Assembly (NCBI GenBank): GCA_025965915.1
Contig: JAOPWA010000021.1
Coordinates: 1-34,522, forward strand
Length of the DNA stretch: 34,522 bases
From: Dactylosporangium sp.
Lineage (GTDB): Bacteria > Actinomycetota > Actinomycetes > Mycobacteriales > Micromonosporaceae
Direction of reading: 5' to 3'
Below, in pieces: positions 4,781-23,496 of the stretch. Under the pieces are notes generated by a model, which was not told where the DNA came from, ran no database searches, and saw nothing but the letters and a program-made list of their open reading frames with translations. Position 1 is the first letter of the stretch, and each line of letters starts with the position of its first letter. A program made the translations under genes and the position numbers.

Positions 4781-5571
4781 GCCGCACCTCCGGAGAAACA
4801 GGTCCGGACCGATCCCAGGCCGGAGATCCGCGCCTCGTACGCTGCGCCGGGGGCCACCGGCACCATCGGGCCGAGCGCCCCGGAGAGCACCACGTCACCG
4901 GCGCGCAGCGGACGTCCCGAGCGGGCGAGGGTCTCGGCCAGCCAGGCCACGGCGTGTGCCGGGTTGCCCAGGCAGGCCGCGCCGGCGCCGACCGAGACCG
5001 GCTCGCCGGCGTGTTCGAGCACCATTCCGCACAGCCGCAGGTCGACCTCGGCGATCCGCCTGGGTGCCGTGCCGAGCACGAAAAGCCCGCTGGAGGCGTT
5101 GTCGGCCACCGTGTCCACGATGGAGATGTCCCAGCCCGCCACCCGCGAGTCGACGATCTCGATCGCCGGCAGCAGGTGGTCGGTCGCGTGGATCACGTCC
5201 GCGACCGTCACCTGTTCGTAGGGCAGGTCGGCGCCGAGCACGAATGCGACCTCCGCTTCCACGCGCGGTTGCAGCAGCCGGCCGAGGTCGACCTCGGTGC
5301 CGTCGGGCACCGCCATGTCGGCGAAGAGCACACCGAAGTCCGGCTGGTAGACGCCGAGGTTCTCCTGCACGACGCGGGAGGTCAGGCCGATCTTCGCGCC
5401 GACGGGCCGGCGACCCTCCGCCGTCCAGCGCCGCACCTGTGCCTGCTGCACGTCGTACGCCGTCTCGACATCGCCTTCGGGCAGCAGTTCGCCGCGCAGC
5501 GGCGGGCAGGGCTTGCCTTCGTCGTACGCGTCGCGCAGCACCTGCGCCGCCCGCTCGATATCCACGGTCAC
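4777..5571 (-). CDS. nbaH: 2-oxopent-4-enoate hydratase
   Basis: A 264-residue protein homologous to its downstream neighbour, assigned as the hydratase that adds water to 2-oxopent-4-enoate to give 4-hydroxy-2-oxovalerate. Signatures are [23 protein letters not shown], the metal ligands in [10 protein letters not shown], and [12 protein letters not shown] followed by [12 protein letters not shown]. The track's 356-residue ORF adds unrelated upstream codons; the start chosen is GTG 5571, which makes a GTGA overlap with the dehydrogenase stop and gives the normal family length. The next enzymes of the route, aldolase and acylating aldehyde dehydrogenase, are not in the window. Confidence 0.87.
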
Positions 5572-7079
5572 GATAGATCCACACAGACGTTGGTGAGTTC
5601 GGAGTAGAAGTCCAGTGAATGTACGCCGCCTTCGCGGCCGACGCCCGAGGCCTTGACCCCGCCGAAGGGGGTACGCAGGTCGCGCAGGAACCACGTGTTG
5701 ACCCAGACGATGCCGGCGTCCAGCCGGGCGCCGGCCCGATGCGCCCGGCCGACGTCGCGGGTCCACACCGTCGCGGCGAGCCCGTACTCGCTGTCGTTGG
5801 CGAGCGCGTACGCCTCGTCCTCGTCGTCGAACGGCGCGAGGTGGCACACCGGGCCGAAGATCTCCTCCCGGTTGGTGCGCGCGTCCTGGCCCAGACCGGT
5901 CAGTACGGTCGGCTGCACGTACGCGCCGCCGTCGCGGGCGTCGCCGAAGGCCGGGACGCCCCCGCCGGCGAGCACCGTGGCGCCTTCGGCACGGGCCAGG
6001 TCGTAGTAGCCGAGCACCTTGTCGCGGTGCTCTCTGGAGATCAGCGGCATGTTCGCGGTCGCCTCGTCGGACGGCCAGCCGAAGGCCAGCTCACCGGCGC
6101 GCTTCGCCAGCCGTGCGGCGAACTCGTCGAAGATCGGCCGCTGCACGTAGAGCCGTTCGGTGCACAGGCACACCTGGCCGCCGTTGGTGAAGCTGGACCG
6201 GACCGAGCCCGCCACCGCCGCGTCCAGGTCGGCGTCGGCGAAGACCAGACCCGCGTTCTTGCCACCCAGTTCGAACGACACGGCCTTGACCCCACCTGCC
6301 GCGGCCCGCATGATCGTGGCGCCGGTGGCGGACTCCCCGGTGAAGGTGATCGCGTCGACGCCGGGGTGGCGGGTGAGGAACTCTCCCGCCGAGGCCGGGC
6401 CGAAGCCGTGTACCAGGTTGAACACCCCATCCGGCACGCCCACCGCCGCCATTATCTCGGCGAGCAGCGTCGCCGACGACGGGGTCTCCTCGGACGGCTT
6501 GACGATGACCGCGTTGCCGCAGGCCAGTGCCGGGGCGACCTTCCAGGTCAGCAGCAGCAGCGGCAGGTTCCAGGGCACGATGATCGCGACGACGCCGACC
6601 GGCTTGCGGACGGCGTAGTTGAGCGCCCGCCCGCCACCAGCGGTGGCGGTGGTGAACGACTCGGTCGGCGCGGTCGCGGCGATCTCGGCGAAGGCCCGGA
6701 AATTGGCGGCTCCACGCGGGATGTCCAGCGTCCGGGCCTGCGAGATGGACTTGCCGGTGTCGGCGACCTCGGCGGCCACCAGATCGTCGAAGCGCCGCTC
6801 CAACTCGTCGGCGATCCGGCGCAGCACGCCGGCGCGCTCCTGCTCGCCCATCCGGCCCCACGGCCCGCCCAGCGCCCGGCGTGCGGCATCCACGGCCGCG
6901 TCCACGGTGCCGGCACCCGCCTCGGCCACCTCGAAGATGGTCTCGCCCGTAACCGGGCTGACCTTGGCGAACGTCTTGTCCCCGGCGACGAACTCGCCGC
7001 CGACGAAGTTGCGCAGCAGTCCCGGCGCGCCGGCCGGTCGCCCGGTCATCAGCTCCGGGCTCCACAGTGTCCGGGTCAC
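5568..7079 (-). CDS. nbaE: 2-aminomuconic 6-semialdehyde dehydrogenase
   Basis: A 503-residue NAD-dependent aldehyde dehydrogenase. It would oxidise 2-aminomuconic semialdehyde to 2-aminomuconate between the ACMSD and deaminase steps. The fold landmarks are complete: Asn171 in VPWNLP, the nucleotide-site KPSEETP (about 194-200), FTGESATG (246-253), general base Glu270 in FELGGKN and catalytic Cys304 in GGQVC. Start GTG 7079 gives a GTGA overlap with the monooxygenase stop; a second possible start is an ATG 30 nt downstream. Family members also oxidise 2-hydroxymuconic semialdehyde, so specificity is set here by context. Confidence 0.92.
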   Translation of the reverse strand: MTRTLWSPELMTGRPAGAPGLLRNFVGGEFVAGDKTFAKVSPVTGETIFEVAEAGAGTVDAAVDAARRALGGPWGRMGEQERAGVLRRIADELERRFDDLVAAEVADTGKSISQARTLDIPRGAANFRAFAEIAATAPTESFTTATAGGGRALNYAVRKPVGVVAIIVPWNLPLLLLTWKVAPALACGNAVIVKPSEETPSSATLLAEIMAAVGVPDGVFNLVHGFGPASAGEFLTRHPGVDAITFTGESATGATIMRAAAGGVKAVSFELGGKNAGLVFADADLDAAVAGSVRSSFTNGGQVCLCTERLYVQRPIFDEFAARLAKRAGELAFGWPSDEATANMPLISREHRDKVLGYYDLARAEGATVLAGGGVPAFGDARDGGAYVQPTVLTGLGQDARTNREEIFGPVCHLAPFDDEDEAYALANDSEYGLAATVWTRDVGRAHRAGARLDAGIVWVNTWFLRDLRTPFGGVKASGVGREGGVHSLDFYSELTNVCVDLS

Positions 7080-8413
7080 GGGTTCCTCCTACCGCGGGTG
7101 GCAAGGGTGCCCAGCGTGCCGAGCAGCAGCGCCCCCGCCCCGGCGAGCGCCGCACCGAGCACCTGGTGCTGGCGCCGCACCCGCCGCTGCACCTCGGCGT
7201 ACGGGGTGGTCGAGAACGACACCAGTTCGTACCGGGAGACGTACCGGCCGGGAAGGGCCCGCTCCAGGGCGTGCTCCACCTTCCTGCTGAGCTGGAACAC
7301 CGGCGAGGCGACCTTGTCGCGCATCTCCACGAAGTTGGCCAGCGCCATCCGCGCGATTGCCTCGGTGTTGTCCCTGCGTCGCGCTTCGAACAGTGGCAGC
7401 GCCGTCTTCCAGGTGTCGCCGGTGTCGTCCAGGCAGCGGTCCAGTTCCACCACGTCTTCGAAGGCGCAGTTGGCGCCCTGCCCGTAGAACGGCACGATCG
7501 CGTGCGCCGCGTCGCCGAGCAGCCCCACCGTGCCGCCCGACTGCCAGGGTGCGCAGCGCACGGTGCCGAGCATCCCGACCGGGTTGTGCAGGTAGTCGTC
7601 GACCAGGTTGGGGGCGAGCGACATCAGGTCCGGGTACTGGGTGCGGAAGTGCCGCTCGATCGCGGCCGGGCTGCCCAGCGACGCGAAGCTGGTGGTGCCG
7701 CCGGTGGGCCAGAACAGCGTGCAGGTGAACGACCGGTCCGGGTTGGGTAGCGCGATCATCATCGAGGTGCCACGTGGCCAGATGTGCAGCGCGTCCGGGT
7801 CGAGAGCGAACTCTCCGGCCAGCGGTGGGATCGTCAGCTCCTTGTACCCGTAGTCGAGGAAGTCGAGGCTCTCGGTCAGCCCGCCGTGCGCCAGCAACTG
7901 GCCGCGTACCGCCGAGCCGGCGCCGTCCGTGCCGAGGACGACCGCGGCGCTCGTCCGGGTCTTGCCCTGCGGGGTTTCGTAGGTCATCTCGCCGGTCGCC
8001 GGGTCGAGGCCGACGAGGCGGTGGTCGAAGGCGATCCGTACGCCGGGCAGCGCCGCAGCGGCGTTCAGCAGGGCGTTGTTGAGGGCGCCGCGGCTGATGG
8101 AGTTGATCGCGCGGTCGCCGTCGAGGCTGTACGGCTGGAAGTTCAGCTCGCCTTGCATCGGGTGGATCATGCGCCCGCGCATCGGCAGCGCATCGGCCAT
8201 CACCTGCTTGTCCAGGTCGATGCGGCGCAGCGCGTCGAGCCCCCGCTCGGACAGGGCCAGGTTGATGGAGCGGCCCCGCTCGACCGTCCCGGTGCGCGGG
8301 TCTGGGCGGCGCTCGTAGAGGGCGACCGGGTATCCGCGACGGGCCAGGAAACAGGCGAGCAGGCATCCGGCGAGGCCGGCGCCGACGACGGCTACCTCGT
8401 CCTTCTCGTTCAT
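7076..8413 (-). CDS. kmo: Kynurenine 3-monooxygenase
   Basis: A 445-residue class A FAD monooxygenase that hydroxylates L-kynurenine to 3-hydroxykynurenine with NADPH and oxygen. The FAD motif VVGAGLAG is at residues 9-16, followed by YERRPDPR and RGRSINLALSERG, a segment typical of KMO. The second FAD motif LLGDAAHAIVPFYGQGAN also matches. After the catalytic region come basic residues and a hydrophobic stretch of about 20 residues (VLGAALAGAGALLLGTLG), then RGRR. This looks like a C-terminal membrane anchor, as in the mitochondrial enzymes. ATG 8413 has an ATGA overlap with kynureninase; the longer track ORF is read-through. Confidence 0.94.
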   Translation of the reverse strand: MNEKDEVAVVGAGLAGCLLACFLARRGYPVALYERRPDPRTGTVERGRSINLALSERGLDALRRIDLDKQVMADALPMRGRMIHPMQGELNFQPYSLDGDRAINSISRGALNNALLNAAAALPGVRIAFDHRLVGLDPATGEMTYETPQGKTRTSAAVVLGTDGAGSAVRGQLLAHGGLTESLDFLDYGYKELTIPPLAGEFALDPDALHIWPRGTSMMIALPNPDRSFTCTLFWPTGGTTSFASLGSPAAIERHFRTQYPDLMSLAPNLVDDYLHNPVGMLGTVRCAPWQSGGTVGLLGDAAHAIVPFYGQGANCAFEDVVELDRCLDDTGDTWKTALPLFEARRRDNTEAIARMALANFVEMRDKVASPVFQLSRKVEHALERALPGRYVSRYELVSFSTTPYAEVQRRVRRQHQVLGAALAGAGALLLGTLGTLATRGRRNP

Positions 8414-9687
8414 CTGACCTCCTCGATGGTGTGCGCGAGCGCTTCGGCGACCCGCCAGCAGTCGTGGTAGGTCGAGTAGAGCGGCGCCGGCGCCACCCGG
8501 ACGATGTCCGGCTCCCGGGCGTCGGTGATCACTCCGTGTTCGTGGCGCAGCCGCTTGGCCAGCTCGCTGGCGCTGCCGCTGCCGATCCGTAGCGACAGTT
8601 GGCAGCCGCGCCGGCCCGGGTCGCGCGGGGTGACCAGGGTGACCGTCCGGGCGGCGGTGACCTCGTCGATGAGTTGCTCCAGGTACCCGGTGAGGCGCTC
8701 GCTGCGCGCGCGCAGCGCGGGCATGCCGACCTGGGCGAAGATCTCCAGTGAGGTACGGACCGGACCCATGGCGTAGATCGGCGGGTTGGAGACCTGCCAC
8801 GCGTCGGCCCGGGCGAGCGGGCGGGAGACCGGGGTCATCTCGAAGCGGGTGGCCGGGTCGGTGCTCCACCAGCCCTCGAACCGCTGGATGGTGGGATCGT
8901 CGAGGTGTCGGGAGTGCACGAACGCGCCGGCGAGTGCGCCGGGGCCGGAATTCAGGTACTTGTACGAGCACCAGGCCGCGAAGTCGACGCCCCACTCGTG
9001 CAGTTGGAGCGGGACGTTGCCGGCGGCGTGGGCGAGGTCCCAGCCGACGATCGCGCCGGCGGCCCGGCCGGCCTCGGTGATCGCCGGGATGTCCATCAGC
9101 TCGCCGGTCAGGTAGTTGACCCCGCCGAGCAGGACGAGGGCGACCCGGTCGCCGTCGGCGCCGAGGTAGTCGACGATGTCCTCGGTGCGCAGCGTGTCCT
9201 CGCCCGGGCGTGGCCGTAGCCGTACCACCGTCTCGTCAGGGTCGAAACCGTGGAAGCGGGCCTGGCTGCGCACCGCGTAGCTGTCCGACGGAAAGGCGGA
9301 GTCCTCGATGACGATCCGGTTCCGCTCGCCCCGCGGTCGGTAGAACGACACCATCAGCAGGTGCAGGTTGACCGTCAGCGAGTTCATCACGACGGCTTCG
9401 CATGCCAGGGCGCCGACCAGTCGCGCCGCGTACTCGGTGAGGAACTCGTGGTACGGCAGCCACGGGCGGCCCGCCTCCAGGTGCCCCTCGACACCGAGCC
9501 GCGCCCATTCGTCCAGGTCGTCGAGCAGGTCGGCCCGGGTGGCCTTCGGCTGCAGCCCCAGGGAGTTGCCCGCCAGGTAGGCGACTTCGGCGTACCGGCC
9601 GCCGTCCGCGGGTGGGATGTGGAAGAGATCCCGGTGGCCGGGGTCGGCCGCGTCGCGTCGCCGGGCGTCGTCCTCGGTCAACGTCAT
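8410..9687 (-). CDS. kynU: Kynureninase
   Basis: A 425-residue PLP enzyme of fold type I that cleaves 3-hydroxykynurenine to 3-hydroxyanthranilate and alanine. Landmarks are YLAGNSLGLQP (37-47), MNSLTVNLHLLM (101-112), the PLP-ring Asp217 in GWDLAHAAGN, and the Schiff-base Lys243 in CSYKYLNSGPG. GWWSTDP and FEMTP further on are also kynureninase-like. The start chosen is ATG 9687, with GGAG about 10 nt upstream; the track ORF extends through an unrelated N-terminal stretch. It lies 14 nt after the dioxygenase stop, the only gap in the operon, and overlaps kmo by 4 nt. Confidence 0.95.
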   Translation of the reverse strand: MTLTEDDARRRDAADPGHRDLFHIPPADGGRYAEVAYLAGNSLGLQPKATRADLLDDLDEWARLGVEGHLEAGRPWLPYHEFLTEYAARLVGALACEAVVMNSLTVNLHLLMVSFYRPRGERNRIVIEDSAFPSDSYAVRSQARFHGFDPDETVVRLRPRPGEDTLRTEDIVDYLGADGDRVALVLLGGVNYLTGELMDIPAITEAGRAAGAIVGWDLAHAAGNVPLQLHEWGVDFAAWCSYKYLNSGPGALAGAFVHSRHLDDPTIQRFEGWWSTDPATRFEMTPVSRPLARADAWQVSNPPIYAMGPVRTSLEIFAQVGMPALRARSERLTGYLEQLIDEVTAARTVTLVTPRDPGRRGCQLSLRIGSGSASELAKRLRHEHGVITDAREPDIVRVAPAPLYSTYHDCWRVAEALAHTIEEVR

Positions 9688-9701: not shown

Positions 9702-10607
9702 TCACATGAAGGTCCGGGCGGACCAGAGTTCGGGGAAGACCACACGAGCCATGCTGCGCTGCAGCCAGGCGACGCCGGCCGAGCCGCCGCTGCCCGCCTT
9801 GCCGCCCATGGCCCGTTGCACCGCCTTGAGGTGCTGGTAGCGCCAGTCGCCGAACTGCTCGGCGATCTCGGTCAACGCCTGTCCGAGCATCCGCAGGTGG
9901 TTGTCTGAGGTGTCGGCCCGGTAGATCTCGACCCAGGCCGCCTCCACCGCCGGGTGCGGCTCGTGCTCCGTGGCGACGTCGCGCTCGAGCAGGGCCGGCG
10001 GGATGTCGAAGCCGCGCCGGGCCAGTAGCGCGGCCACGTCGTCCCACAGGCTCGGCGCGTGCAGGGTGTCGACCAGTTCCGCGTAGACCTCGGTCTGCCG
10101 GCGGAACGGGCGGACCAGCGACGCGGTCCTGATGCCGAGCAGGAACTCGAGTTGCCGGTACATCGCGGACTGGAAGCCCGACCCCTCACCGAGCAGGTCC
10201 CGGAACCGGTTGAAGTCTGCCGGCGTCATCCAGCGCAGGCCGCGCCAGGCGGCGTTGAGTCCTTCGAGGTGCAGGGCGGCGCGTCGAAGCGGGCTGAGCG
10301 TCGACCACACGTCGTCGGCGCGCAACAGCTTCTGCGCCTCGCGCAGCTCGAAGCAGGTCAGCCCGAAGTAGAGCTCCATGATCTGGCTCACCATGAGGAA
10401 GGACATCTCCCCGGCGTCCTTACTCAGCGTCTGCTGCAGTGAGTGCAGCGTGCTGGCGTGCACGTACGCGTCGTAGGGCAGGATGTCGGCGAACTCCAGG
10501 GTGGGCTCGCCGGCGTTGGCGGCTGCCTTGGTCGCGCGCTCCTCAGGCGTCGACGGGCGCACCACTGCCGTGGTCTTCGTCGGCCCGCGCGGATCGGTGC
10601 TCTCCAC
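9702..10607 (-). CDS. kynA: Tryptophan 2,3-dioxygenase
   Basis: A haem dioxygenase that oxidises L-tryptophan to N-formylkynurenine, the first step of the operon's pathway. Family features include the FxxILPYDxYVHASTLHSLQ region near residue 40, the MELYFGLTCFELREAQ helix, and the C-terminal GDWRYQHLKAVQR segment whose His is the proximal haem ligand, followed by GSGGSAG. The track ORF of 495 codons is too long. GTG 10607, preceded by a GGGGGAAGG ribosome site about 7 nt upstream, gives 301 residues, close to the bacterial norm. First gene of the operon and the likely point of control by the divergent Lrp-type gene. Confidence 0.94.
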   Translation of the reverse strand: MESTDPRGPTKTTAVVRPSTPEERATKAAANAGEPTLEFADILPYDAYVHASTLHSLQQTLSKDAGEMSFLMVSQIMELYFGLTCFELREAQKLLRADDVWSTLSPLRRAALHLEGLNAAWRGLRWMTPADFNRFRDLLGEGSGFQSAMYRQLEFLLGIRTASLVRPFRRQTEVYAELVDTLHAPSLWDDVAALLARRGFDIPPALLERDVATEHEPHPAVEAAWVEIYRADTSDNHLRMLGQALTEIAEQFGDWRYQHLKAVQRAMGGKAGSGGSAGVAWLQRSMARVVFPELWSARTFM

Positions 10608-10709
10608 GTGTCGCCTTCCCCCCTCGACCAGGCACGACGTACGTGCCCTCAGTGGCGTTATGGTCTCTCGACCGGGGTGAGTCGTGGAATGTGGAACCAA
10701 CGGTGCTCT

Positions 10710-10738
10710 ACGGTAATGACCTGCAGCTCCGCGGTCAG
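10710..10738 (-). promoter_or_regulatory. Candidate promoter of the kynurenine operon
   Basis: On the minus strand CTGACC (10733-10738) and TACCGT (10710-10715) are spaced by 17 nt, which would place the start near 10703 and leave a leader of about 95 nt. The hexamers are moderate matches to the actinobacterial housekeeping consensus. The leader can also form a GGCACG/CGTGCC hairpin (10631-10647). Confidence 0.4.
10717..10737. promoter_or_regulatory. Inverted repeat, candidate Lrp/AsnC-type operator
   Basis: TGACC (10717-10721) and GGTCA (10733-10737) form a 5-bp inverted repeat with 11-nt spacing. It covers the -35 box and spacer of the candidate kyn promoter and lies upstream of the divergent Lrp-type gene, the usual place for its operator. 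Short arms make this tentative. Confidence 0.35.
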
Positions 10739-10772
10739 AACGGGTTGATCGCTTAACGAACTGAAGGTGTCT

Positions 10773-11252
10773 GTGGACGATATGGATTGGGTGCTCCTGC
10801 GCGAGTTGCAAGCCGACGCGCGACTCTCCTTCAGCGAGCTGTCCCGCCGGGTGCATCTGTCGCCGCCCGCCGTGGCGGAGCGGGTGCGGCGGCTGGAAGA
10901 AGCCGGCATCATCGCCGGGTACCACGCTCACGTCGATCTGGCGAAGACCGGCTGGACCGTCCTCGCGATCATCCGGATGTCCTGCTACGGCCCGCGTTGC
11001 CTGCTGCGTGACCCGGCGGTGGGGGAGTGGCCGGAGATCCTGGAGATACACCGGATCACCGGCGACGCCTGTTGCATCCTGAAGGTCACCGCCGGCACGA
11101 TGGACGCCTTCGAACAGGTCATCGACCGGCTCGCCCCGTATGGCCAACCCTCGAGCACGATGGTGCTCTCCACCCCGCTCGATTGGCATCCCGTCACCCC
11201 GCCGCCAGCGTCGACGGTCGACGACGCACTACGCGCGCCCGGGCGTCGTTGA
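10773..11252 (+). CDS. Lrp/AsnC family regulator, probable kyn regulator
   Basis: A 159-residue protein with an N-terminal winged HTH (LLRELQADARLSFSELSRRVHLSPPAVAERVRRLEEAGII, about residues 6-45) and a C-terminal RAM ligand-binding domain (about 60-140, with EILEIHRITGDACCILKV). It is divergent from the tryptophan dioxygenase operon, as the Lrp-type KynR gene is in Pseudomonas, so a kynurenine-responsive regulator is the best inference. Start choice: GAAGG at 10763-10767 favours GTG 10773 (5-nt spacing); GTG 10767 overlaps that site and ATG 10782 is rather far. Its 3' end overlaps the convergent LLM oxidoreductase gene by 24 nt. Confidence 0.88.
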   Translation: MDDMDWVLLRELQADARLSFSELSRRVHLSPPAVAERVRRLEEAGIIAGYHAHVDLAKTGWTVLAIIRMSCYGPRCLLRDPAVGEWPEILEIHRITGDACCILKVTAGTMDAFEQVIDRLAPYGQPSSTMVLSTPLDWHPVTPPPASTVDDALRAPGRR

Positions 11253-12260
11253 CACCGGCTCCCGGCGCAGCAGCGGCAGCACCGCGGATCCCAGCAGCTC
11301 CACCCCGCGCTCGTCGGTGAGCCCGTGCGGGGTGCCGAACTCCACCCGGCGTACCCCGGCGTCGATGAGCGCCTGCGCCTGCGCGGCGACCTGCTCCGGA
11401 GTGCCGGAGAACGCGAACAGGTCGAGCAGGTCGTCGGGGATGAGCCGGCCGGCCGCCTCGTGCCGGCCCGCGTCGACCAGCTCCTTCACCCTGGCGAGCA
11501 GGTCGGCGGGCAGCTCGACGGTCGGGTCCAATTCGGCCACCACCGCGAGGTACATGGCGACCTCGGTCCGGGCCCGGGCGCGCGCCGCCGGGCCGTCGGT
11601 ATCCACGACGGTGACCGCGCCGAGGACGATGCCGACATCGCCGACCGCTCGTCCGATGCGCTCCGCGCCGGCCCTGACCCGGTCCCGGATCACCGCCACC
11701 ATCGCGGGATTGGCGCTACCGCCGACCTTGATCTCGTCGGCGATCCGGCCGGCGAGGGCGGCGCCCTTCGGGCCCCAGGCGCCGAGTAGCAGCGGCGGGT
11801 CGGGTCGGTGCACGGGGTACCGCAAGGCGGTGCCGGGTGCCAACCGGAACAACTTTCCCTCGTAGCCCGCGGCGTCGCCGCGCAGCAGCCGGTAGACGAC
11901 CTCCGCCGCCTCCTCCAGGGCGGTCAGCGGTCGGGGCTGGTCGATGCCGACGACGCCCAGCCAGGTCCCTCGGGCCAGCCCCAGGTAGGCCCGGCCGCGC
12001 GAGGCGAGATCGAGCGCGGCGACCTGCCCGGCGATCTCGTACGGGGCCATCGAGTACGGGTTGAGGCAGGCCGTCCCGAGACGGACGCGTTCGGTGGCGG
12101 CGGCCATCTCCAGCAGCGGGAAGATCGGCGGCTGGTACATCAGGTCACTGAATACGGTCAGCACGTCGAAGCCGCGCTCCTCGGCGCTGCGGGCCAACCG
12201 CGCGTAGTCGCCGGCCCGCTTGTCGCTCTGCAGCCCGAGCCCGATCTCCACGGCGGTCAT
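11229..12260 (-). CDS. Mer-like LLM class flavin/F420-dependent oxidoreductase
   Basis: A 343-residue luciferase-like TIM-barrel protein. It resembles the branch that contains methylenetetrahydromethanopterin reductase and related F420 or FMN enzymes: EERGFDVLTVFSDL near residue 30, a CLNPYSMAPYEIA strand, the RAYLGLARGTWLG segment, PLLLGAWGPKGAALAGRIADEI, and a C-terminal FGTPHGLTDERGVELLG. The substrate is unknown. ATG 12260 has GAGGAG 8 nt upstream, so it is preferred over the 6-codon longer track start. It is the last gene of a minus-strand set with an XRE-cupin regulator and a TIGR04076-type protein. A paralogue lies at 25928-26926. Confidence 0.85.
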   Translation of the reverse strand: MTAVEIGLGLQSDKRAGDYARLARSAEERGFDVLTVFSDLMYQPPIFPLLEMAAATERVRLGTACLNPYSMAPYEIAGQVAALDLASRGRAYLGLARGTWLGVVGIDQPRPLTALEEAAEVVYRLLRGDAAGYEGKLFRLAPGTALRYPVHRPDPPLLLGAWGPKGAALAGRIADEIKVGGSANPAMVAVIRDRVRAGAERIGRAVGDVGIVLGAVTVVDTDGPAARARARTEVAMYLAVVAELDPTVELPADLLARVKELVDAGRHEAAGRLIPDDLLDLFAFSGTPEQVAAQAQALIDAGVRRVEFGTPHGLTDERGVELLGSAVLPLLRREPVSTTPGRA

Positions 12261-12296
12261 GGCGGGTTCTCCTCGCATCTTTCCTCGGATCGGAGA

Positions 12297-12680
12297 TCAG
12301 GTCAGGTCGGCGGAGTTCAGCCGGCGCCGGCAGGTGCGCTCGACCCGCATGACCAGCCGTTCTTCGGGGTCGGGGCAGGCGAAGAGTGAATCCTGGGCCA
12401 GCCAGTCGCCGGCGGCCAGGTCGCGCTGCTTGGCGGCGAGAAACGGCAGGACCGAGGCCAGCGCGTACACGCAGAAGTGCCGGCCTTCCGGGAGCCGCAG
12501 ATGAGCGCTGTTGGTCAGTTCGAAGTAGTCACCGACCGTCATGCCGCAGACCGATCGACCCTCGATGCGGTCCACGCTGACCCGCAGGTCGTAGAGCTCC
12601 ATGTCGCCGCCGGCGGTGTCGTCGACAGCCTCGGTCGTGCCCGCCCGGTCGGCGTCGATGTCCGGCTGGTTGTCCGCCAT
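12297..12680 (-). CDS. TIGR04076-type small protein of unknown function
   Basis: A 127-residue protein. After an acidic, probably disordered N-terminal 26 residues, it carries a compact domain with YDLRVSVDRIEGRSVCGM, VGDYFEL, GRHFCVYALASVLPFLAAKQR and FACPDPEERLVMRVERT. From memory this matches the TIGR04076 family, whose function is not known; three Cys in the domain (VCGM, HFCVY, FACPD) are notable. ATG 12680 has GGGAAGGG about 7 nt upstream; an internal ATG at 12602 would give the domain alone. It sits 29 nt after the XRE-cupin gene and 36 nt before the LLM oxidoreductase, so all three are likely co-transcribed. Confidence 0.75.
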   Translation of the reverse strand: MADNQPDIDADRAGTTEAVDDTAGGDMELYDLRVSVDRIEGRSVCGMTVGDYFELTNSAHLRLPEGRHFCVYALASVLPFLAAKQRDLAAGDWLAQDSLFACPDPEERLVMRVERTCRRRLNSADLT

Positions 12681-12709: not shown

Positions 12710-13246
12710 TCAGGGCGTCGGCGGATTGATGGCGAGGACGATCTCCGTGGGCGCGTCGGAGGTGTTGCGGTAGCGGTGCGGCTGGCTGGAGTCGAAGGTG
12801 ATGCTCTCGCCCGGGACGACGGTGTAGGTCGCGCGGTCGAACTCGACGGTCAGCATGCCGGCGACGACGTACGCGCACTCCAGCGACGGGTGGCTCCACA
12901 GTTCCTCGCTGGACACCTCACCGGGGGCGAGGACAGAGTGCAGCACCTCGAGCTGACCGTTGCCCGGGGTGAGCCGTTCGTACCGGATCTGCCCGTTGGG
13001 TGCGCCCAGGGTGGTCCGTTCGCCGGGTCGGCTGACCCAGACCGACGGGGCGGTCGGATCCGCGAACAGCGAGGCGACCGACTCACCGAAGACCCCGGCG
13101 AGCCGGCGCAGGGTTGCCAGGCTGGGCTCGGTGATCCCGCGCTCTACCTGGCTGAGCAGCGTCGGAGACACATTCGCCTGCTCGGCCAGGACGCGCAGGC
13201 TCATGCCCCGCGCCGTGCGCAGCTCGCGCAAGCGCTCTCCGATCAC
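12710..13246 (-). CDS. XRE-family HTH plus cupin transcriptional regulator
   Basis: A 178-residue regulator with an N-terminal lambda-repressor-type HTH (GERLRELRTARGMSLRVLAEQ..., about residues 3-57, with SPTLLSQVERG as recognition region) and a C-terminal cupin domain (about 105-172) that should bind a small ligand. Such proteins often control amino acid, amine or carboxylate uptake genes nearby. The track start (GTG 13306) lies within what looks like promoter and operator DNA; GTG 13246, following GGAGGAAGGG, is more likely. It is divergent from the DUF3311-SSS symporter genes, and both promoters carry the same inverted repeat, so I infer autoregulation and symporter control. Confidence 0.85.
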   Translation of the reverse strand: MIGERLRELRTARGMSLRVLAEQANVSPTLLSQVERGITEPSLATLRRLAGVFGESVASLFADPTAPSVWVSRPGERTTLGAPNGQIRYERLTPGNGQLEVLHSVLAPGEVSSEELWSHPSLECAYVVAGMLTVEFDRATYTVVPGESITFDSSQPHRYRNTSDAPTEIVLAINPPTP

Positions 13247-13280: not shown

Positions 13281-13297
13281 ATGCAGGTCAACTGCAC
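13281..13297. promoter_or_regulatory. Operator-like inverted repeat A at the XRE-cupin promoter
   Basis: ATGCAGGTCAACTGCAC, with TGCAG/CTGCA arms. It begins 11 nt downstream of the -10 box of the minus-strand promoter. It matches repeat B (13428-13444) at TGCAG and ACTGCAC and at the same distance from its promoter, so it is a probable binding site of the XRE-cupin protein. Confidence 0.65.
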
Positions 13298-13308
13298 GCG
13301 TGTCACGC

Positions 13309-13337
13309 ACCGTAGGGACGCACCGGCCTGGCGTCAA
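13309..13337 (-). promoter_or_regulatory. Promoter of the XRE-cupin operon
   Basis: On the minus strand TTGACG (13332-13337), a 17-nt spacer and TACGGT (13309-13314) form a near-ideal actinobacterial housekeeping promoter. The start would be near 13302, just before inverted repeat A, leaving a leader of about 55 nt to GTG 13246. This argues against the longer track start at 13306. Confidence 0.7.
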
Positions 13338-13386
13338 GTGAGCGAACTACCAGCCTGTGGAGGGCTTCCGTCCTTCTTTAAGGGTC

Positions 13387-13416
13387 TTGACTGAGTCCGG
13401 TCGTACGCCCTAGCGT
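13387..13416 (+). promoter_or_regulatory. Promoter of the DUF3311-symporter operon
   Basis: TTGACT (13387-13392), an 18-nt spacer and TAGCGT (13411-13416) fit the consensus, with a start near 13423 and a leader of about 70 nt to ATG 13491. Inverted repeat B begins 11 nt after the -10 box, mirroring the divergent promoter. Confidence 0.65.
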
Positions 13417-13427
13417 CCCCGCTCAAC

Positions 13428-13444
13428 GTGCAGTAGCACTGCAC
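13428..13444. promoter_or_regulatory. Operator-like inverted repeat B at the symporter promoter
   Basis: GTGCAGTAGCACTGCAC is a 17-bp palindrome with perfect 7-bp arms (GTGCAGT/ACTGCAC). It lies just downstream of the predicted start site, so binding there would block transcription. It shares the TGCAG and ACTGCAC ends with repeat A. Confidence 0.7.
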
Positions 13445-13490
13445 ACGCGGGTCACGGCGGCCGTGCCGCCGCTCGGACTACAGGAGAGCC

Positions 13491-13778
13491 ATGACGTCGC
13501 TCGGTCATTCCGAGCAGGCCCCGGCACGCCGATCCACGGCCCACCGGTGGCTGCTCGTGATCCCATTCATCTGGCAGGTCGCCCTGATACCCGTCGTCAA
13601 CGACGTGCGGGCGGCGCCGCTGCACATCCCGTTCCCCATGCTCTGGCAGATGCTCGGCATCGTCGCCACCACTGTCGTCATCGCGGTGGTGTTCCGGCTC
13701 GACCGGGCCGCCGGGGTGGACGACGAAGAGCGCCGGTTCGCGGCGGCGACCGAGAGCACGGGGGGTGAGCAGGCATGA
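13491..13778 (+). CDS. DUF3311 small membrane protein, symporter partner
   Basis: A 95-residue protein with two membrane segments (WLLVIPFIWQVALIPVV near 20-37 and FPMLWQMLGIVATTVVIAVVF near 48-69) and a charged C-terminal tail. It fits DUF3311, a family regularly encoded just before sodium:solute symporters and thought to be an accessory subunit or stabiliser. ATG 13491 follows AGGAG at good spacing. Its stop overlaps the symporter start (ATGA). Confidence 0.85.
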   Translation: MTSLGHSEQAPARRSTAHRWLLVIPFIWQVALIPVVNDVRAAPLHIPFPMLWQMLGIVATTVVIAVVFRLDRAAGVDDEERRFAAATESTGGEQA

Positions 13779-15292
13779 AGCTCGCGATCGTGCTGGTGAT
13801 CGTGCTGGGCACCGTGGCCGGAGCCATCGGGTACGGGCGGCGCACCGCGCGTACGACCAGCGTCAGCGAGTGGGCCGTCGGTGGCCGGCGCCTCGGTACC
13901 CTGATCTTCTGGTTCATGAACGCCGGCGAGGTCTACACGACCTTCGCCGTGCTCGGCATCTCCGGCTACGCCTGGGCGCTCGGCGCACCGGCATACCTGG
14001 CGTTCTGCTCGGTCTCGCTGAGCTACGCGCTCGGCTACTGGCTGATGCCCAAGATCTGGCGGGCCGGACGCAAGAAGGGTCTGATCACCCAGGCCGATTT
14101 CTTCGCCGCCCGGTTCGACGCCCCGTGGCTCGGTGTGGTCGCCGGTCTGGTCGGAATCGCCGCGCTGGTCGTGTACGTGCAGATCCAGCTGGTGAGCCTG
14201 AGCCTGATCGTGCAGCTCGCGCTCGGCGGCGTCCTGTCGACGACCGCGGCGGTCATCGTCGCCGCGATCGTGATGCTCGCCTTCGTCTACCTGGCCGGTC
14301 TGCGCTCCGCCGCGTTCGCCGCCGCGGTCAAGGATGTCCTCATGGTCCTCGTGGTCATCCTGCTGTCCGCGACGGTGGCCGCGAAGGTCGGCGCGGCATC
14401 GATGTTCGATGTGTTCCGCCTCGCCGAGCAGGCCCACCCCGGCATCGGCCGCCTGCCCGGCGTCGACCCCGCGTCGCCGACCGGACCGGTGTGGCTGATG
14501 ACCTCCGCGCTGAACGTGGCCCTGGGCAACTGGGTGTTCCCGCACCTGTTCCAGGTGTCCTACGCCGCCAAGAGTGGCCAGGCGATCCGGCGTAACGCCG
14601 TCTGGCAGCCGCTGTACTCGCTGGCCTACTTCTTCATCATCCTGCTCGGCTTCGCCGCCCTGCTGGCGGGCACCAAGCCGGCCGGCGGCAACCTGAACGG
14701 GGCCCTGCTGCAGTTCGTCACCGACAAGTACCCGGCGTGGATCGTCGGCCTGGTCGCCGGGACCGGCTTCCTGCTCGCCCTGGCCCCCGGCTCCGTCCTG
14801 CTGCTGACCTCCGGCTCACTGTTCGCCCGCAACGTCGTCACGCCGTTCAAGAAGAACCTCGACGATCGTTCGGCACTGCTGCTGTCCAAAGTGTCCATGG
14901 TCGGCTTCGCCGCGATCGCGGTGTGGCTGACCCTCGGTCAGAGCAAGTCGCTGGTCGATATCCTGCTCTACGCGTACTCGGCGATCGGGATGCTCGCGCC
15001 CGCGGTCTTCCTCGCGTTCCTGTGGCGGCGTACGACCGCCGTCGGCGTACTTGCCGGCATCGTCGTCGGGTTCGTCGCGCTGCTCGCTCCCTTCGCGAAG
15101 AACGTCTGGGCCGCCCACCTGCCCGACTGGGAGCCCGGCCTGATCGCCATGGCGATCAACTTCGCGGTCACCGTGCTGGTCAGCCTGGTCACGCCGGGCC
15201 CGAGCGAGCACGCCATCGCCGTCGGGCTCGCACTCCGCGCCGAGGACGTCACCAGCCCCGGGCCGGCGGAGCCGGTTACCGTGCGCCCGTAG
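13775..15292 (+). CDS. Sodium:solute symporter (SSS family)
   Basis: A 505-residue integral membrane protein with about 13 hydrophobic segments. It begins with a membrane helix and then the TTSVSEWAVGGRRLG loop typical of SSS transporters, followed by MNAGEVYTTFAVLG. The second half includes LLLTSGSLFARNVVTPFKKN, which corresponds to the conserved cytoplasmic loop after helix 8. The substrate cannot be read from sequence; related DUF3311-linked members are usually placed with organic acid or cofactor-precursor transporters. It overlaps the DUF3311 gene by 4 nt and ends in a strong bidirectional terminator shared with the convergent amidohydrolase. Confidence 0.9.
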   Translation: MKLAIVLVIVLGTVAGAIGYGRRTARTTSVSEWAVGGRRLGTLIFWFMNAGEVYTTFAVLGISGYAWALGAPAYLAFCSVSLSYALGYWLMPKIWRAGRKKGLITQADFFAARFDAPWLGVVAGLVGIAALVVYVQIQLVSLSLIVQLALGGVLSTTAAVIVAAIVMLAFVYLAGLRSAAFAAAVKDVLMVLVVILLSATVAAKVGAASMFDVFRLAEQAHPGIGRLPGVDPASPTGPVWLMTSALNVALGNWVFPHLFQVSYAAKSGQAIRRNAVWQPLYSLAYFFIILLGFAALLAGTKPAGGNLNGALLQFVTDKYPAWIVGLVAGTGFLLALAPGSVLLLTSGSLFARNVVTPFKKNLDDRSALLLSKVSMVGFAAIAVWLTLGQSKSLVDILLYAYSAIGMLAPAVFLAFLWRRTTAVGVLAGIVVGFVALLAPFAKNVWAAHLPDWEPGLIAMAINFAVTVLVSLVTPGPSEHAIAVGLALRAEDVTSPGPAEPVTVRP

Positions 15293-17918: not shown

Positions 17919-19499
17919 ATGAAGATCCGGTCTGCCGGGGTGCTCGTAACCGCCCTGGCGCTGTCGGGCTCGCTCGCCGCGTGCGGCAGCGGTTCGACCT
18001 CCTCTTCCAACAGCGCGCAGGGTGGCGGCACGGTCGTTGTCGATACCGCGTTCCAACTAAAGACCGCCGACCCTGGCCGCATGTTCGAGCCGACCGGGTT
18101 GCTGATCGCCGAATCGATGTACGACACGCTGCTGACCTTCAAGGGCAGCGACGTGACCAAGCCGGTTCCGGCGCTCGCCGAGTCCTACACCGCGTCCCCG
18201 GACGGCAAGACCTTCACGTTCAAGCTCCGTACCGACGCGAAGTTCTCCGACGGCTCGCCCGTCACCTCGGCTGACGTCGTCTTCTCGCTCAACCGCGTGA
18301 AGAACGTGAAGGGCAACCCGTCGTTCCTCATGGACGGCCTCACGGTCACCGCCCCGGACGCGAACTCCGTGGTCATCACCAGCGACAAGCCCAACGCGGC
18401 GGTGCCGTTCATCCTGCCGAACCCGGCGCTGGGGATCCTGAACTCCACCGTGGTCAAGCAGAACGGCGGCACCGACGCCGTCGGCGCCGACAAGACCGAC
18501 ACCGCGGAGAGCTTCCTCAACTCGAAGTCCCAGGGCAGCGGGCCTTACATCCTCAACAGCTACAGCACCACCACGCAGGTCGTGCTGACCCCGAACGACA
18601 AGTACTGGGGAACGAAGCCGAAGTACTCCAAGGTCGTCGTTCGCAACGTGCAGGCCAACGTGCAGCGGCTCAACGTGGTCAAGGGCGAGTCGCAGGTCGC
18701 GGTCGACCTCTCGCCCGAGCAGGCGAAGGGCCTCAACCAACTGCAGGTGGTCAACGGCGCCTCGCCGAACGTGTTCTTCCTGTTCTCGAACAACAACGCG
18801 GCGATCTCCAAGACCGCTTCGAACCCGAAGTTCCAGGAGGCCGTCCGGTACGGCGTCGACTACAAGGGCCTGGTCGACCTCGCGGGCCAGGGCGCGGTCC
18901 AGACGCCGGGCATCGTCCCGTCGATGTTCCTCGGCGCGCTGTCGAGCGGCGACGCGGTGACCCGTGACGTCGCCAAGGCCAAGGCGGCGCTGGCCGCGTC
19001 GGGCCTTTCCAACCCGACCGTGGCGCTGAGCTACCCGAGCGACGTCCAGGTCAACGGTCTCAACTTCGGCGACCTCGCGGCGCGGGTGCAGGCCAACCTC
19101 AAGGAGGTCGGCATCACCGTGAACCTGGCACCCGCGTCGGTGCAGACCGCGCTGGAGACCTACCGCGGCGGCAAGGAGGAGATGGGTCTGTGGCAGTGGG
19201 GTCCGGACTACCCCGACCCCAGCGACTACCTCAACTTCCTGCCGGGTCAGCTCGTGGGCCTGCGCGCCGGCTGGGCGAAGGGCGCCGACAGCGCGCTGGA
19301 GACGCTCGGCACCCAGGCCGCGTCGACCATCGACGACAGTCAGCGGGCCGGTCTGTACAAGCAGATCCAGCAGTCGATGAACAAGTCGGGGCCGATCATG
19401 CCGCTGATCCAGCCGGCACAGATCCTCGTCGGCGCGAAATCGGTGAAGAACCTGCAGTCCAACGCTCTCTGGCTGGTCAACGTCCGTGAGCTTGGCTAG
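17919..19499 (+). CDS. ABC transporter substrate-binding lipoprotein, family 5 (peptide type)
   Basis: A 526-residue extracytoplasmic solute receptor. A lipoprotein signal with lipobox LAAC places the acylated Cys at residue 22. The body fits the SBP_bac_5 family: LKTADPGRMFEP and AESMYDTLLTF near the start, PALAESYTASPDGKTFTFKLR (about 87-107), KFSDGSPVTSADVVFSLNR and the QWGPDYPDPSDYLNFLPGQL segment near residue 425-445. The family binds di- and oligopeptides, nickel, opines and other small molecules, so the ligand is open. ATG 17919 follows GGAGG. It heads a seven-gene operon under operator 2. Confidence 0.93.
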   Translation: MKIRSAGVLVTALALSGSLAACGSGSTSSSNSAQGGGTVVVDTAFQLKTADPGRMFEPTGLLIAESMYDTLLTFKGSDVTKPVPALAESYTASPDGKTFTFKLRTDAKFSDGSPVTSADVVFSLNRVKNVKGNPSFLMDGLTVTAPDANSVVITSDKPNAAVPFILPNPALGILNSTVVKQNGGTDAVGADKTDTAESFLNSKSQGSGPYILNSYSTTTQVVLTPNDKYWGTKPKYSKVVVRNVQANVQRLNVVKGESQVAVDLSPEQAKGLNQLQVVNGASPNVFFLFSNNNAAISKTASNPKFQEAVRYGVDYKGLVDLAGQGAVQTPGIVPSMFLGALSSGDAVTRDVAKAKAALAASGLSNPTVALSYPSDVQVNGLNFGDLAARVQANLKEVGITVNLAPASVQTALETYRGGKEEMGLWQWGPDYPDPSDYLNFLPGQLVGLRAGWAKGADSALETLGTQAASTIDDSQRAGLYKQIQQSMNKSGPIMPLIQPAQILVGAKSVKNLQSNALWLVNVRELG

Positions 19500-20571
19500 T
19501 CCCACCGTCGCTTCCGCTGGAGCGGGCCGGCTACGTCCGGCCCGCTCCGGCAAGGGCGTGCTGCGGTTCCTCGCCCGGCGCATCGCGGCCGCCGCGCTGC
19601 TGTGCGTCGGGATCACGCTGGTCGCGTTCACCCTGACCCAGTTGGTCCCGGGCGACCCGGCCACCGCGAACCTCGGCCAGCGGGCCATCGGCGACCCCGC
19701 CGCGGTCGCCGCCTTCCGGGCCAAGTACGGCCTGGACAAGCCACTGCCGGTGCAATACCTGACCTATCTCGGCAACGTGGTGCGGGGCAACCTTGGCCTG
19801 TCCCAGCAGAGCCACCGGCCGGTGGCGCAGGACCTCGGCGAGTACGTGCCGGCAACGATAGAGCTCGCGCTCTTCGCGATCGTGCTCTCGCTGCTCATCG
19901 GCGTCGCCTTCGGCGTCCTCGCAGCCATCAACCGGGATCGCTGGCCCGACCAGGTGCTCCGGGTGGTGAGCCTCGGCGGCGTCTCGATGCCGACGTTCTG
20001 GGTCGCGCTCGTCGCGTTCTACCTGTTCTTCTTCAAGTTCGGCCTGCTGCCCGGCGGCGGCCGGATCGACCCCGGCATGAACGCCCCACCCCAGGCCACC
20101 GGCTTTTACACGATTGACGCGGCGCTCGCCGGCCAGTGGGACGTCTGGGGGTCGGCAGTACGCCACCTCGTGCTTCCCTCGCTCGTGCTCGCCGTCTACA
20201 CCGTCGGCATGCTGATGCGCTTCACCCGCGCGTCCGTGCTGGAGATCCTCGGCAACGACTACGTGCGGGCGGCGCGGGCCAAGGGCCTGCCGGAGCGCGT
20301 CGTCATCCTGCGCCACGTGCTGCGTCCCGCACTGGTCGCGATCATCACCGTGGCCGGCGTCGCCTTCGGCAGCCTGCTGTCCGGTGCCGTCCTCGTCGAG
20401 AGCATCTTCTCCTGGCCGGGCCTGGGACAGTACGCGTACCGCAGCGCGGTCAACCTTGATCTGCCCGCCATCATGGGTGTCAGCATCGTCGTCGCGGCCG
20501 TCTACATCGTCATCAACCTGCTCGTCGACCTTCTCTACGGGGTCATCGACCCGAGGATCCGGCTGACGTGA
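19486..20571 (+). CDS. ABC transporter permease, DppB type
   Basis: A 361-residue inner-membrane permease with an unusually long, basic N-terminal extension before the first membrane helix (FLARRIAAAALLCVGITLVAFTLTQLVPGDPA, the usual DppB start). About six membrane segments follow, and the EAA-type coupling loop is seen in ARAKGLPERVVILRHVLRPAL. The start at GTG 19486 overlaps the previous gene by 14 nt. A GTG at about 19558 would remove the extension, and neither has a strong ribosome site. It would pair with the next gene's product to form the channel. Confidence 0.9.
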   Translation: MSLASPTVASAGAGRLRPARSGKGVLRFLARRIAAAALLCVGITLVAFTLTQLVPGDPATANLGQRAIGDPAAVAAFRAKYGLDKPLPVQYLTYLGNVVRGNLGLSQQSHRPVAQDLGEYVPATIELALFAIVLSLLIGVAFGVLAAINRDRWPDQVLRVVSLGGVSMPTFWVALVAFYLFFFKFGLLPGGGRIDPGMNAPPQATGFYTIDAALAGQWDVWGSAVRHLVLPSLVLAVYTVGMLMRFTRASVLEILGNDYVRAARAKGLPERVVILRHVLRPALVAIITVAGVAFGSLLSGAVLVESIFSWPGLGQYAYRSAVNLDLPAIMGVSIVVAAVYIVINLLVDLLYGVIDPRIRLT

Positions 20572-21485
20572 CCGCAACCGACCCGACACCGGCGGACCCG
20601 ACACCGGCCGATCCGACACCGCGGGAGCCTGCCGTAAGCGCGCGCCGCGACCGGGCCGCCGCCCGGTCGCCGTGGCGGCAGCCGCTCGCGCTCGTGGGCG
20701 CCGCGCTCGTCGTCGCGTGGGTCCTCATCGCCGTCCTGGCGCCGCTGCTCGCGCCCCAGGGGCCGCTCGACCAGCTCGCGCCAAAGCTTTCGGCCCCGTC
20801 CGCGAGCCACCTCTTCGGCACCGACGAGCTGGGTCGCGACGTGCTGAGTCGGGTCATCTACGGCTCCCGGATCTCGCTACCGCTGGCGATCCTGCTCGTC
20901 GTGCTCGCCACGGTGCTCGGGGCAAGCGTCGGCGCTATCGCCGGCTTCTTCGGCGGCTGGATCGACGGCACGCTGATGCGACTGGCCGACCTGGTGTTCG
21001 CCTTCCCCGGCATCATCCTGGCCATGGCGGTGGCCGCGGCTCTCGGGCCACAGCTGCGCAACGCCGTGCTCGCCGTCGTCATAGTGTCCTGGCCCTCGTA
21101 CGCGCGGCTGGTACGCGGCCTCGTGCTGTCCGCCCGGAACTCGGAGTACGTGGCGGCCAGCCGGCTGCTCGGATCGTCGGCGTTGCGGACGATGCTCGTC
21201 GACCTGCGGCCCAACATCGCCGGCCCGGTGCTCGTGATGGCCGCGCTCGACGTCGGCAACGCCGTTCTGCTGCTGTCAGGTCTGTCCTTCCTGGGGCTCG
21301 GCGCGCAGCCACCCACCGCTGAATGGGGCGCCATGGTCGCTGCCGGCGCGGCGAACTTCGACCGCTGGTGGGTGGGCGTCTTTCCGGGCCTGGCCATCCT
21401 CACCGTCGTGCTCGCGTTCAATTTCGTCGGCGACACCCTGCGCGACGCACTCGACCCGCGCACCGCGCGCGCTATCAGGGACTGA
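20568..21485 (+). CDS. ABC transporter permease, DppC type
   Basis: A 305-residue permease. Its cytoplasmic N-terminus has three copies of DPTPA/R encoded by a 15-nt tandem repeat, followed by a first membrane helix (LALVGAALVVAWVLIAVLAPLLAP), then FGTDELGRDVLSRVIYGSRISL, a hallmark of DppC-type subunits. The EAA loop is EYVAASRLLGSSALRTMLVDLRPN. GTG 20568 overlaps the upstream stop (GTGA). Confidence 0.92.
   Translation: MTATDPTPADPTPADPTPREPAVSARRDRAAARSPWRQPLALVGAALVVAWVLIAVLAPLLAPQGPLDQLAPKLSAPSASHLFGTDELGRDVLSRVIYGSRISLPLAILLVVLATVLGASVGAIAGFFGGWIDGTLMRLADLVFAFPGIILAMAVAAALGPQLRNAVLAVVIVSWPSYARLVRGLVLSARNSEYVAASRLLGSSALRTMLVDLRPNIAGPVLVMAALDVGNAVLLLSGLSFLGLGAQPPTAEWGAMVAAGAANFDRWWVGVFPGLAILTVVLAFNFVGDTLRDALDPRTARAIRD
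20580..20624 (+). repeat. 15-nt tandem repeat, three units, coding DPTPA
   Basis: GACCCGACACCGGCG, GACCCGACACCGGCC and GATCCGACACCGCGG follow one another in frame near the start of the DppC-type gene. The copies are nearly identical at the DNA level, so expansion looks recent. Confidence 0.85.
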
Positions 21486-21487
21486 CC

Positions 21488-22498
21488 ATGGGCGCACTTC
21501 TGGAGGTCGAGAACCTCACCGTCTGGCTCGCCACCCGGCGCGGGCCGCAGAAGGCCGTCGACGGCGTCTCGTTCCACGTCGACGCCGGCGAGATCTTCGG
21601 CATCGCGGGCGAGAGCGGCAGCGGCAAGACGATGACCGCGATGGCGCTGCTCGGCCTGCTCCCGCACGCCGCCCGGACCAGCGGTCGGGCCGTGTTCGAG
21701 GGCCGCGACCTACTGTCGATGTCGCCAAAGGAGCTGCGCTCGGTGCGCGGCCGCCGCATCGCGATGGTGTCGCAGGACCCGTCGACCAGCCTGCACCCGA
21801 TGCTCAACGTCGAAACCCAGCTGACCGAACACATGCGTCATCACCTCGGGCTGCGCAAGTCCGAAGCGCGCAGCCGCGCCATCGACCTGCTGGCCACGGT
21901 GCGCATCCCCGACCCGGAGCGGGCGCTGGCCGCGCACCCCGCGCAGTTCTCCGGCGGCATGCGCCAGCGCATCGCCATCGCGGTGGCGCTAGCCTGCGAG
22001 CCGCGCCTGCTGCTGGCCGACGAGCCCACGACCGCGCTCGACGTCACCGTGCAGGCGGGCATCCTGCGGCTGCTCGACCGGCTGCGCCGCGAGCAGGACC
22101 TCGCCGTCGTGGTCATCACCCACGATCTCGGCGTGATGTCCGCGGTGACCGACCGGATCTGTGTGATGTACGGCGGTCGGGTCGCCGAGGTCGGCCCGAG
22201 GCAGGGCGTTCTGAAAGAGCCCCGCCATCCGTACACCCGGGGCCTGCTCGACGCGCTGCCGCACCCGGAGGGCGGGGCGGCGACGCTCCGGCCGATTCCG
22301 GGCAGCCCGCCGCCACTGGGGGAGGTACCCGAGGGGTGCGCGTTCCACCCCCGCTGCGGGTTCGCCCTCCCGAGTTGCCGCATCGAACGCCCGGCGCCGG
22401 CCCTCGTCGGCGACGCGCACGAGTCGGCCTGCCCGCCGGACCCGCTGAAAGACCCCGACCCGCTGAAAGACCCGGACCCGCTGAAAGGCACCGCGTGA
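21488..22498 (+). CDS. ABC transporter ATP-binding protein, DppD type
   Basis: A 336-residue ATPase. Walker A is GESGSGKT (about 37-44), the signature is FSGGMRQR, Walker B is [12 protein letters not shown] and the switch His follows in VVITHDLG. The C-terminal oligopeptide-transporter extension is present, with [14 protein letters not shown] and the Cys-bearing [14 protein letters not shown] motif, which in relatives binds an iron-sulfur cluster. The protein ends in a PLKDPD tandem repeat. ATG 21488 is 2 nt after the upstream stop with CAGGGA before it; the track ORF is longer by shadow codons. Confidence 0.93.
22439..22492 (+). repeat. 18-nt tandem repeat, three units, at the 3' end of the DppD-type gene
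   Basis: GACCCGCTGAAAGACCCC, its near-copy ending CCG, and a third unit ending GGCACC encode (DPLKDP)x2-DPLKGT. Lys is AAA in each copy, unusual in this GC-rich DNA. Confidence 0.85.
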
Positions 22499-23496
22499 GC
22501 GCCCTACTGGAAGCGACCGGGCTCGCCGTCGAGTACCACCGGCGTGGCGCCCCGACGCTGCGGGCCGTCGATCGCGTCGACCTGCGTCTGGACCGTGGCG
22601 AGGTCCTCGGTCTGGTCGGCGAGTCCGGTTGCGGCAAGTCGACGCTGGGCCGCGCGGTGGTGGGGCTGCTGCCCGCCGCCGCGGGCGAGATCCGCTTCGA
22701 CGGCCGTGCCGTAACCCCGCTGGGGCGGCGGAGGCGCCCGCGCGAGCTGCGCGGATTGCAGATGGTCTTCCAGGACCCGTACGCGTCGCTCAACCCGCGC
22801 CGACGGATCGGCGAGCAGATCGGCGACGGGTACGTCCTCGACGGGGTCGCCCGGTCCGAGGCCGCGCGCCGGGCCGGCGACCTGCTCGAGCGCGTCGGGT
22901 TGTCGGCGAACACGGCCAGCCGCTACCCGCACGAGTTCAGCGGTGGCCAGCGCCAGCGGATCGCTATCGCGAGGGCCCTCGCCACCGACCCGAGCTGCAT
23001 CATCGCCGACGAGCCGATCAGCGCGCTGGACGCGTCGGCGCAGGCGTCCGTGGCCAACCTGCTCGTCGCGCTGGTGCGTGAACTCGACATGGGCATGGTG
23101 TTCATCTCGCATGACCTGTCGGTGGTACGGCAGATCGCCGATCGCACCGCCGTCATGTACCTCGGCCGCGTCGTCGAGGTGGGACCCACCCAGCAGATCT
23201 GGTCGGCGCCCGCCCACCCGTACACCCGGGCGCTGATCTCAGCGGTGCCGCGCGCCGACGGGGCCGGCGTGCTGCCGGTCGAGCTGCCCGGTGATGTGCC
23301 CGACCCGGCGCGGCCGCCGGCCGGTTGCCGGTTCCACCCGCGCTGCCCGCTCGTGCGACCGGAATGCGCTCGGCACGACCCGCCGCTCACCGTCCTGCGG
23401 GACGGCCGGTCGGCCGCGTGCGTGCTGCAGAGCCCCGGTGAGCCGGCGCGCCCGCTCGCGGAGCCGCACCCGGTATCGCCGTCGATGAAGGAGTGA
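22495..23496 (+). CDS. ABC transporter ATP-binding protein, DppF type
   Basis: A 333-residue ATPase, second of the pair. Walker A is GESGCGKST, the signature FSGGQRQR, Walker [13 protein letters not shown] and the switch His is in VFISHDLS. The Q-loop [14 protein letters not shown] and the C-terminal [14 protein letters not shown] motif are typical of DppF/OppF. GTG 22495 overlaps the DppD-type stop (GTGA); the upstream part of the track ORF, which overlaps the DppD-type gene in another frame, is rejected. Confidence 0.92.

Follow-up and report, generated by a model that had tools for sequence, protein, structure and literature searches.

Paired TGCAG palindromes at divergent promoters as probable operators of an adjacent XRE-cupin regulator in Dactylosporangium

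How are two divergent operons, one headed by an XRE-cupin regulator gene and the other encoding a membrane transporter, controlled from the short region between them? The question arises in a stretch of 34,522 nucleotides from Dactylosporangium sp. (contig JAOPWA010000021.1, positions 1 to 34,522), referred to here as the window. An initial annotation of the window described mirror-image promoters, each followed by a 17-bp palindrome that starts exactly 11 nt after the -10 box; this arrangement is exact in the sequence. The features of the locus are as follows.

11229..12278, minus strand: LLM-class oxidoreductase, probably F420-dependent, third gene of the regulator operon (from profile matches and ortholog loci)
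12297..12680, minus strand: small protein of the TIGR04076 family, probably co-transcribed with the regulator (29 bp between the genes)
12710..13246, minus strand: XRE-cupin regulator (HTH_3 and Cupin_2 domains), 178 aa, most likely start GTG 13246
13281..13297, minus strand: candidate operator 1, regulator side, GTGCAGTTGACCTGCAT in the direction of transcription, predicted +6 to +22
13309..13337, minus strand: regulator-operon promoter, TTGACG (13337-13332), 17 nt, TACGGT (13314-13309); conserved, start predicted
13387..13416, plus strand: transporter-operon promoter, TTGACT (13387-13392), 18 nt, TAGCGT (13411-13416); conserved, start predicted
13428..13444, plus strand: candidate operator 2, transporter side, GTGCAGTAGCACTGCAC, predicted +6 to +22
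13491..13778, plus strand: DUF3311 small membrane protein, first gene of the transporter operon
13775..15292, plus strand: SSF symporter, MctP-like but below the MctP cut-off

The regulator matches HTH_3 and Cupin_2 above cut-off and has the architecture of an XRE-cupin protein (about 180-200 aa). Its best NCBIfam match is PuuR (NF007408), which has the identical domain order; the score of 64.9 bits is far below the cut-off of 211, and identification as PuuR was rejected. Among solved proteins, the HTH_3-family regulator 1y9q is closest to it in sequence. H119, E123 and H157 are invariant across 12 aligned regulator proteins; judging from the cupin fold, they could hold a metal or ligand. The start codon is most likely GTG 13246 and not 13306, since the 198-aa frame that starts at 13306 opens upstream of the operator, and the ortholog proteins line up from the 13246 codon onward. 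This start places operator 1 in the 5' leader of the regulator gene.

On the transporter side, the DUF3311 gene shares its last 4 bp with the start of the symporter gene. The symporter scores 205.8 bits against the MctP family NF046076, for which the cut-off is 625, and is therefore not assigned to that family. In Sinorhizobium a small gene likewise precedes that of an MctP-like SSF in its operon, and DUF3311 is mentioned in the paper describing it (PMC9100948). The two systems differ in that Sinorhizobium MctP is activated by two-component systems (PMC9100948) and the window symporter falls far short of the MctP cut-off. A hairpin, CGGCGG-N5-CCGCCG (13455-13471), separates operator 2 from the ribosome-binding site of DUF3311. 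Its arms are identical in five loci with an intact DUF3311 while the loop is variable; no compensatory changes are found in these five.

The pattern common to both palindromes is TGCAG-N5-CTGCA; of the two shared ends described initially, TGCAG stands and ACTGCAC is corrected accordingly. The genome scan proposed with that description was carried out on the 6.13-Mb assembly, which is 86% complete: TGCAGN5CTGCA has four matches, two of which are operators 1 and 2, and the 17-bp form RTGCAGN5CTGCAY has two, both at this locus. The remaining matches to the shorter pattern lie within protein-coding frames, for a GyrB-type and a PAC2-like protein (named by eye from the sequence, not by family search). 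With one mismatch allowed, TGCAGN5CTGCA occurs at 66 places in the assembly, against 57 for a reversed control pattern; a dispersed regulon was dropped in view of this small or absent excess. Two 17-bp sites and little or no excess of near matches are what a local regulator would show. A direct-repeat reading, based on GCGNGTCACG after both sites on the plus strand, was also dropped, as the repeat is not kept in relatives by eye. Elsewhere, one other exact TGCAG-N5-CTGCA site occurs in the Microbispora genome, close to a TetR-type gene, and one in A. jejuensis, whose genome has no close ortholog of the regulator.

The palindromes are conserved well beyond Dactylosporangium. The comparison covers 21 loci, including the window, in which the regulators of the relatives are 63-88% identical. 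Both palindromes are present in all 21, exactly or with one mismatch; this applies to operator 2 throughout, while the regulator-side operator departs from the pattern by a single half-site mismatch in thirteen loci. An unbiased dyad count ranks TGCAG-N5-CTGCA first, with occurrences in 15/15 ortholog upstream regions; when these 15 regions are shuffled, any dyad occurs in at most 2. The initial view that equal placement at both promoters exceeds chance is upheld: in two groups, one being the window's family and the other containing Microbispora, Acrocarpospora and Herbidospora, the order promoter, 11-12 nt gap, palindrome recurs on both sides of all 16 loci, with TTGAC(G/T)-17/18-TANNGT ahead of each palindrome. 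The paired layout is thus found in the window and 15 further genomes. The other five loci, of Amycolatopsis type, have the promoter-palindrome layout on the transporter side only, with a gap of 9-11 nt. Their regulator-side palindrome lies near the start codon, has no recognisable promoter, and has a different role.

A default sigma-70 scan of the window calls neither promoter; their assignment therefore rests on conservation. The plus-side promoter (TTGA-type -35, 17/18 nt spacer, TANNGT -10) is found in all 21 loci, and the minus-side TTGACG-17/18-TANNGT is found at the equivalent place in all 16 loci of the two groups. The minus promoter appears to feed the TIGR04076 and LLM oxidoreductase genes as well, and hence to serve more than autoregulation.

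Gene content around the operator pair varies between relatives. The window arrangement, in which regulator-TIGR04076-LLM diverges from DUF3311-SSF, also occurs in Microbispora and in three of the four relatives from the window's family; the fourth, L057, lacks DUF3311-SSF at the equivalent place. In ten loci from Acrocarpospora, Herbidospora and other relatives, the equivalent promoter-operator faces an ABC transporter. Its binding protein is 77-84% identical to that encoded at 17919-19499 in the window, which belongs to an oligopeptide-type ABC operon following a LacI-type regulator gene (17919-23496); this window region contains no TGCAG-N5-CTGCA palindrome at up to one mismatch. Eight of the ten ABC loci and L057 have, after the operator and ahead of the gene that follows, a short frame resembling the start of DUF3311 (L036, L038, L039, L046-L049, L051 and L057); a motif search gave no match in the remaining two. 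The simplest reading of these sequences is that DUF3311-SSF was lost and a stump kept as leader. In the five Amycolatopsis-type loci, the symporter is followed in the same operon by TIGR04076 and LLM (DUF3311-SSF-TIGR04076-LLM). The operator pair thus persists while the transporter-side operon is exchanged among these three forms.

TIGR04076 adjoins the LLM gene in every orthologous locus for which the stretch was read. In the sister-clade locus L075, the regulator faces ABC genes, an amidohydrolase, TIGR04076 and LLM, and the upstream sequence is different. Taken together, the transporter swaps, the Amycolatopsis-type loci and L075 indicate that an uptake system, TIGR04076 and LLM travel together under the regulator. 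The window also contains a kynurenine-pathway-like cluster (3052-3576, 5568-7079, 7076-8995, 9702-10799 and 10767-11252) encoding 3-hydroxyanthranilate dioxygenase, aldehyde dehydrogenase, FAD monooxygenase, tryptophan 2,3-dioxygenase and a divergent AsnC-type regulator; the AsnC and dioxygenase pair adjoins the XRE-cupin operon in several relatives too.

The TGCAG palindrome is restricted to one clade of regulators; more distant regulators that fall outside it (40-64% identity) lack the palindrome. In the regulator alignment S27-x-T29...Q33...E35-R36-G37 is invariant. The recognition helix reads S(P/A)T(L/M)LSQ(V/I)ERG in the TGCAG clade and SPALLSQIENG in the largest outside clade (the ENG sister clade), so that T29 and R36 are replaced by A29 and N36. 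Upstream regions in the ENG sister clade have other, weaker dyads. Among them are TGAACA...TGTTCA-like dyads with a spacer of about 11, upstream of L018-L022 and relatives; these are possibly a different operator belonging to that clade. The helix change at the boundary of palindrome occurrence fits a helix that reads the DNA directly; it falls short of proof because each clade is of one descent.

Together, these sequence comparisons make it very likely that the adjacent XRE-cupin regulator uses both palindromes as operators and is a local, ligand-released repressor of its own operon and of the uptake operon. The mismatched regulator-side half-sites in thirteen loci, and the regulator-side palindromes of the Amycolatopsis-type loci that lack a recognisable promoter, speak against this reading. 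A regulator dimer would bind at each of the two 15-17 bp sites, which span +6 to +22 if transcription starts 7 nt downstream of the -10 box. Bound dimers would block formation of the initiating polymerase complex, holding down the regulator-TIGR04076-LLM operon on the minus strand together with the uptake operon on the plus strand. A substrate or intermediate in the cupin domain would lower DNA affinity and so turn both operons on. Uptake and breakdown of one nutrient are thus very probably switched off together by one protein. XRE-cupin inhibitors are expected to have few palindromic sites in the genome, beside their own gene, and to have them in the core promoters of their targets; here there are two sites only, located 11-12 nt after predicted -10 boxes.

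The initial annotation had the XRE-cupin protein shut both promoters by a roadblock at about +6 to +22. Control of both promoters by this protein is well supported by conservation, restriction to one clade and the precedent of PsdR; the mode of action is better described otherwise. Stopping of the polymerase by bound regulator after it has started would suit operators that lie downstream of the predicted starts. However, the stretch from +6 to +22 falls under the initiating RNA polymerase, and polymerase binding and elongation are not separate steps there; the centre of lac O1 lies near +11. Because the sites lie within this stretch and promoter occlusion is the mode proposed for XRE-cupin proteins by the authors of the Pseudomonas study (PMC7901475), the regulator more likely excludes polymerase or prevents open-complex formation, and an elongation roadblock is improbable. 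Chance palindromes can be set aside almost entirely, being refuted by conservation: only two occur in the assembly and they are kept at 21 orthologous loci. Conservation alone cannot name the binding protein, since the regulator and its neighbours are inherited together, and another regulator, such as the LacI- or AsnC-type protein of the window, might bind the palindromes instead. This is very unlikely, as the palindrome follows the XRE-cupin clade and is kept in Amycolatopsis-type loci where LacI- and AsnC-type genes are not found in the stretches read (17 kb or less).

A further possibility is that dimers on both operators meet through looping of the intervening DNA, about 7-14 turns long, giving cooperative repression of both promoters. 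Operator distances across the loci (74, 75, 114, 121, 124, 125, 134, 135, 143, 145, 146 and 147 bp) lean to one helical phase, although 121 and 143 are off it. Ten roughly independent distances, grouped by hand, give R = 0.61 with p about 0.02, and p about 0.04 against whole turns; the p of about 0.0005-0.001 among 10 distinct distances is overstated, as related values are counted apart. This signal is weak and post hoc. In the Pseudomonas study, binding is described as dimeric and the words loop and tetramer are absent (PMC7901475); no description of cooperative looping was found in the XRE-cupin literature searched. The phase leaning is a lead only, a weak hint of looping. Such a loop is doubtful, and it is equally doubtful that the loop keeps to whole helical turns as the inter-promoter spacer grows and shrinks in steps of ~10 bp.

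The preferred reading, paired operators of a local repressor, has parallels in Pseudomonas aeruginosa, where XRE-cupin proteins are local repressors acting on palindromes, with promoter occlusion proposed (PMC7901475). Among them, the promoters of two adjacent PsdR targets each contain a TTAAG-N5-CTTAA site to which the protein binds (PMC10965056). PsdR resembles the window system in its XRE-cupin architecture and in a palindrome of 5-N5-5 form at two adjacent targets, one for transport and one for an enzyme (PMC10965056, PMC7901475). The half-site is TGCAG in the window system and TTAAG for PsdR; the predicted targets here are an SSF or ABC transporter and an LLM oxidoreductase, as opposed to dipeptide transport and a dipeptidase. 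Unlike PsdR, the window system has both sites in one divergent intergenic region, one of them covering the regulator's own promoter. PauR, ErfA, PA0535 and others are likewise local, with few palindromic sites beside their own gene (PMC7901475), but differ from the window regulator in half-sites and regulons; PauR has many targets. This is a known kind of control, then, and what is new is the TGCAG half-site and a well-conserved example. No actinobacterial XRE-cupin operator of this kind was found in the literature searched, which lay mostly outside subscription journals.

The exchange of SSF and ABC transporters behind one promoter-operator points to a common substrate. The differences at positions 29 and 36 across the clade boundary are a natural experiment on DNA choice by XRE-cupin proteins. 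The locus would provide an operator and a regulon for a widespread, little-studied regulator family in actinomycetes.
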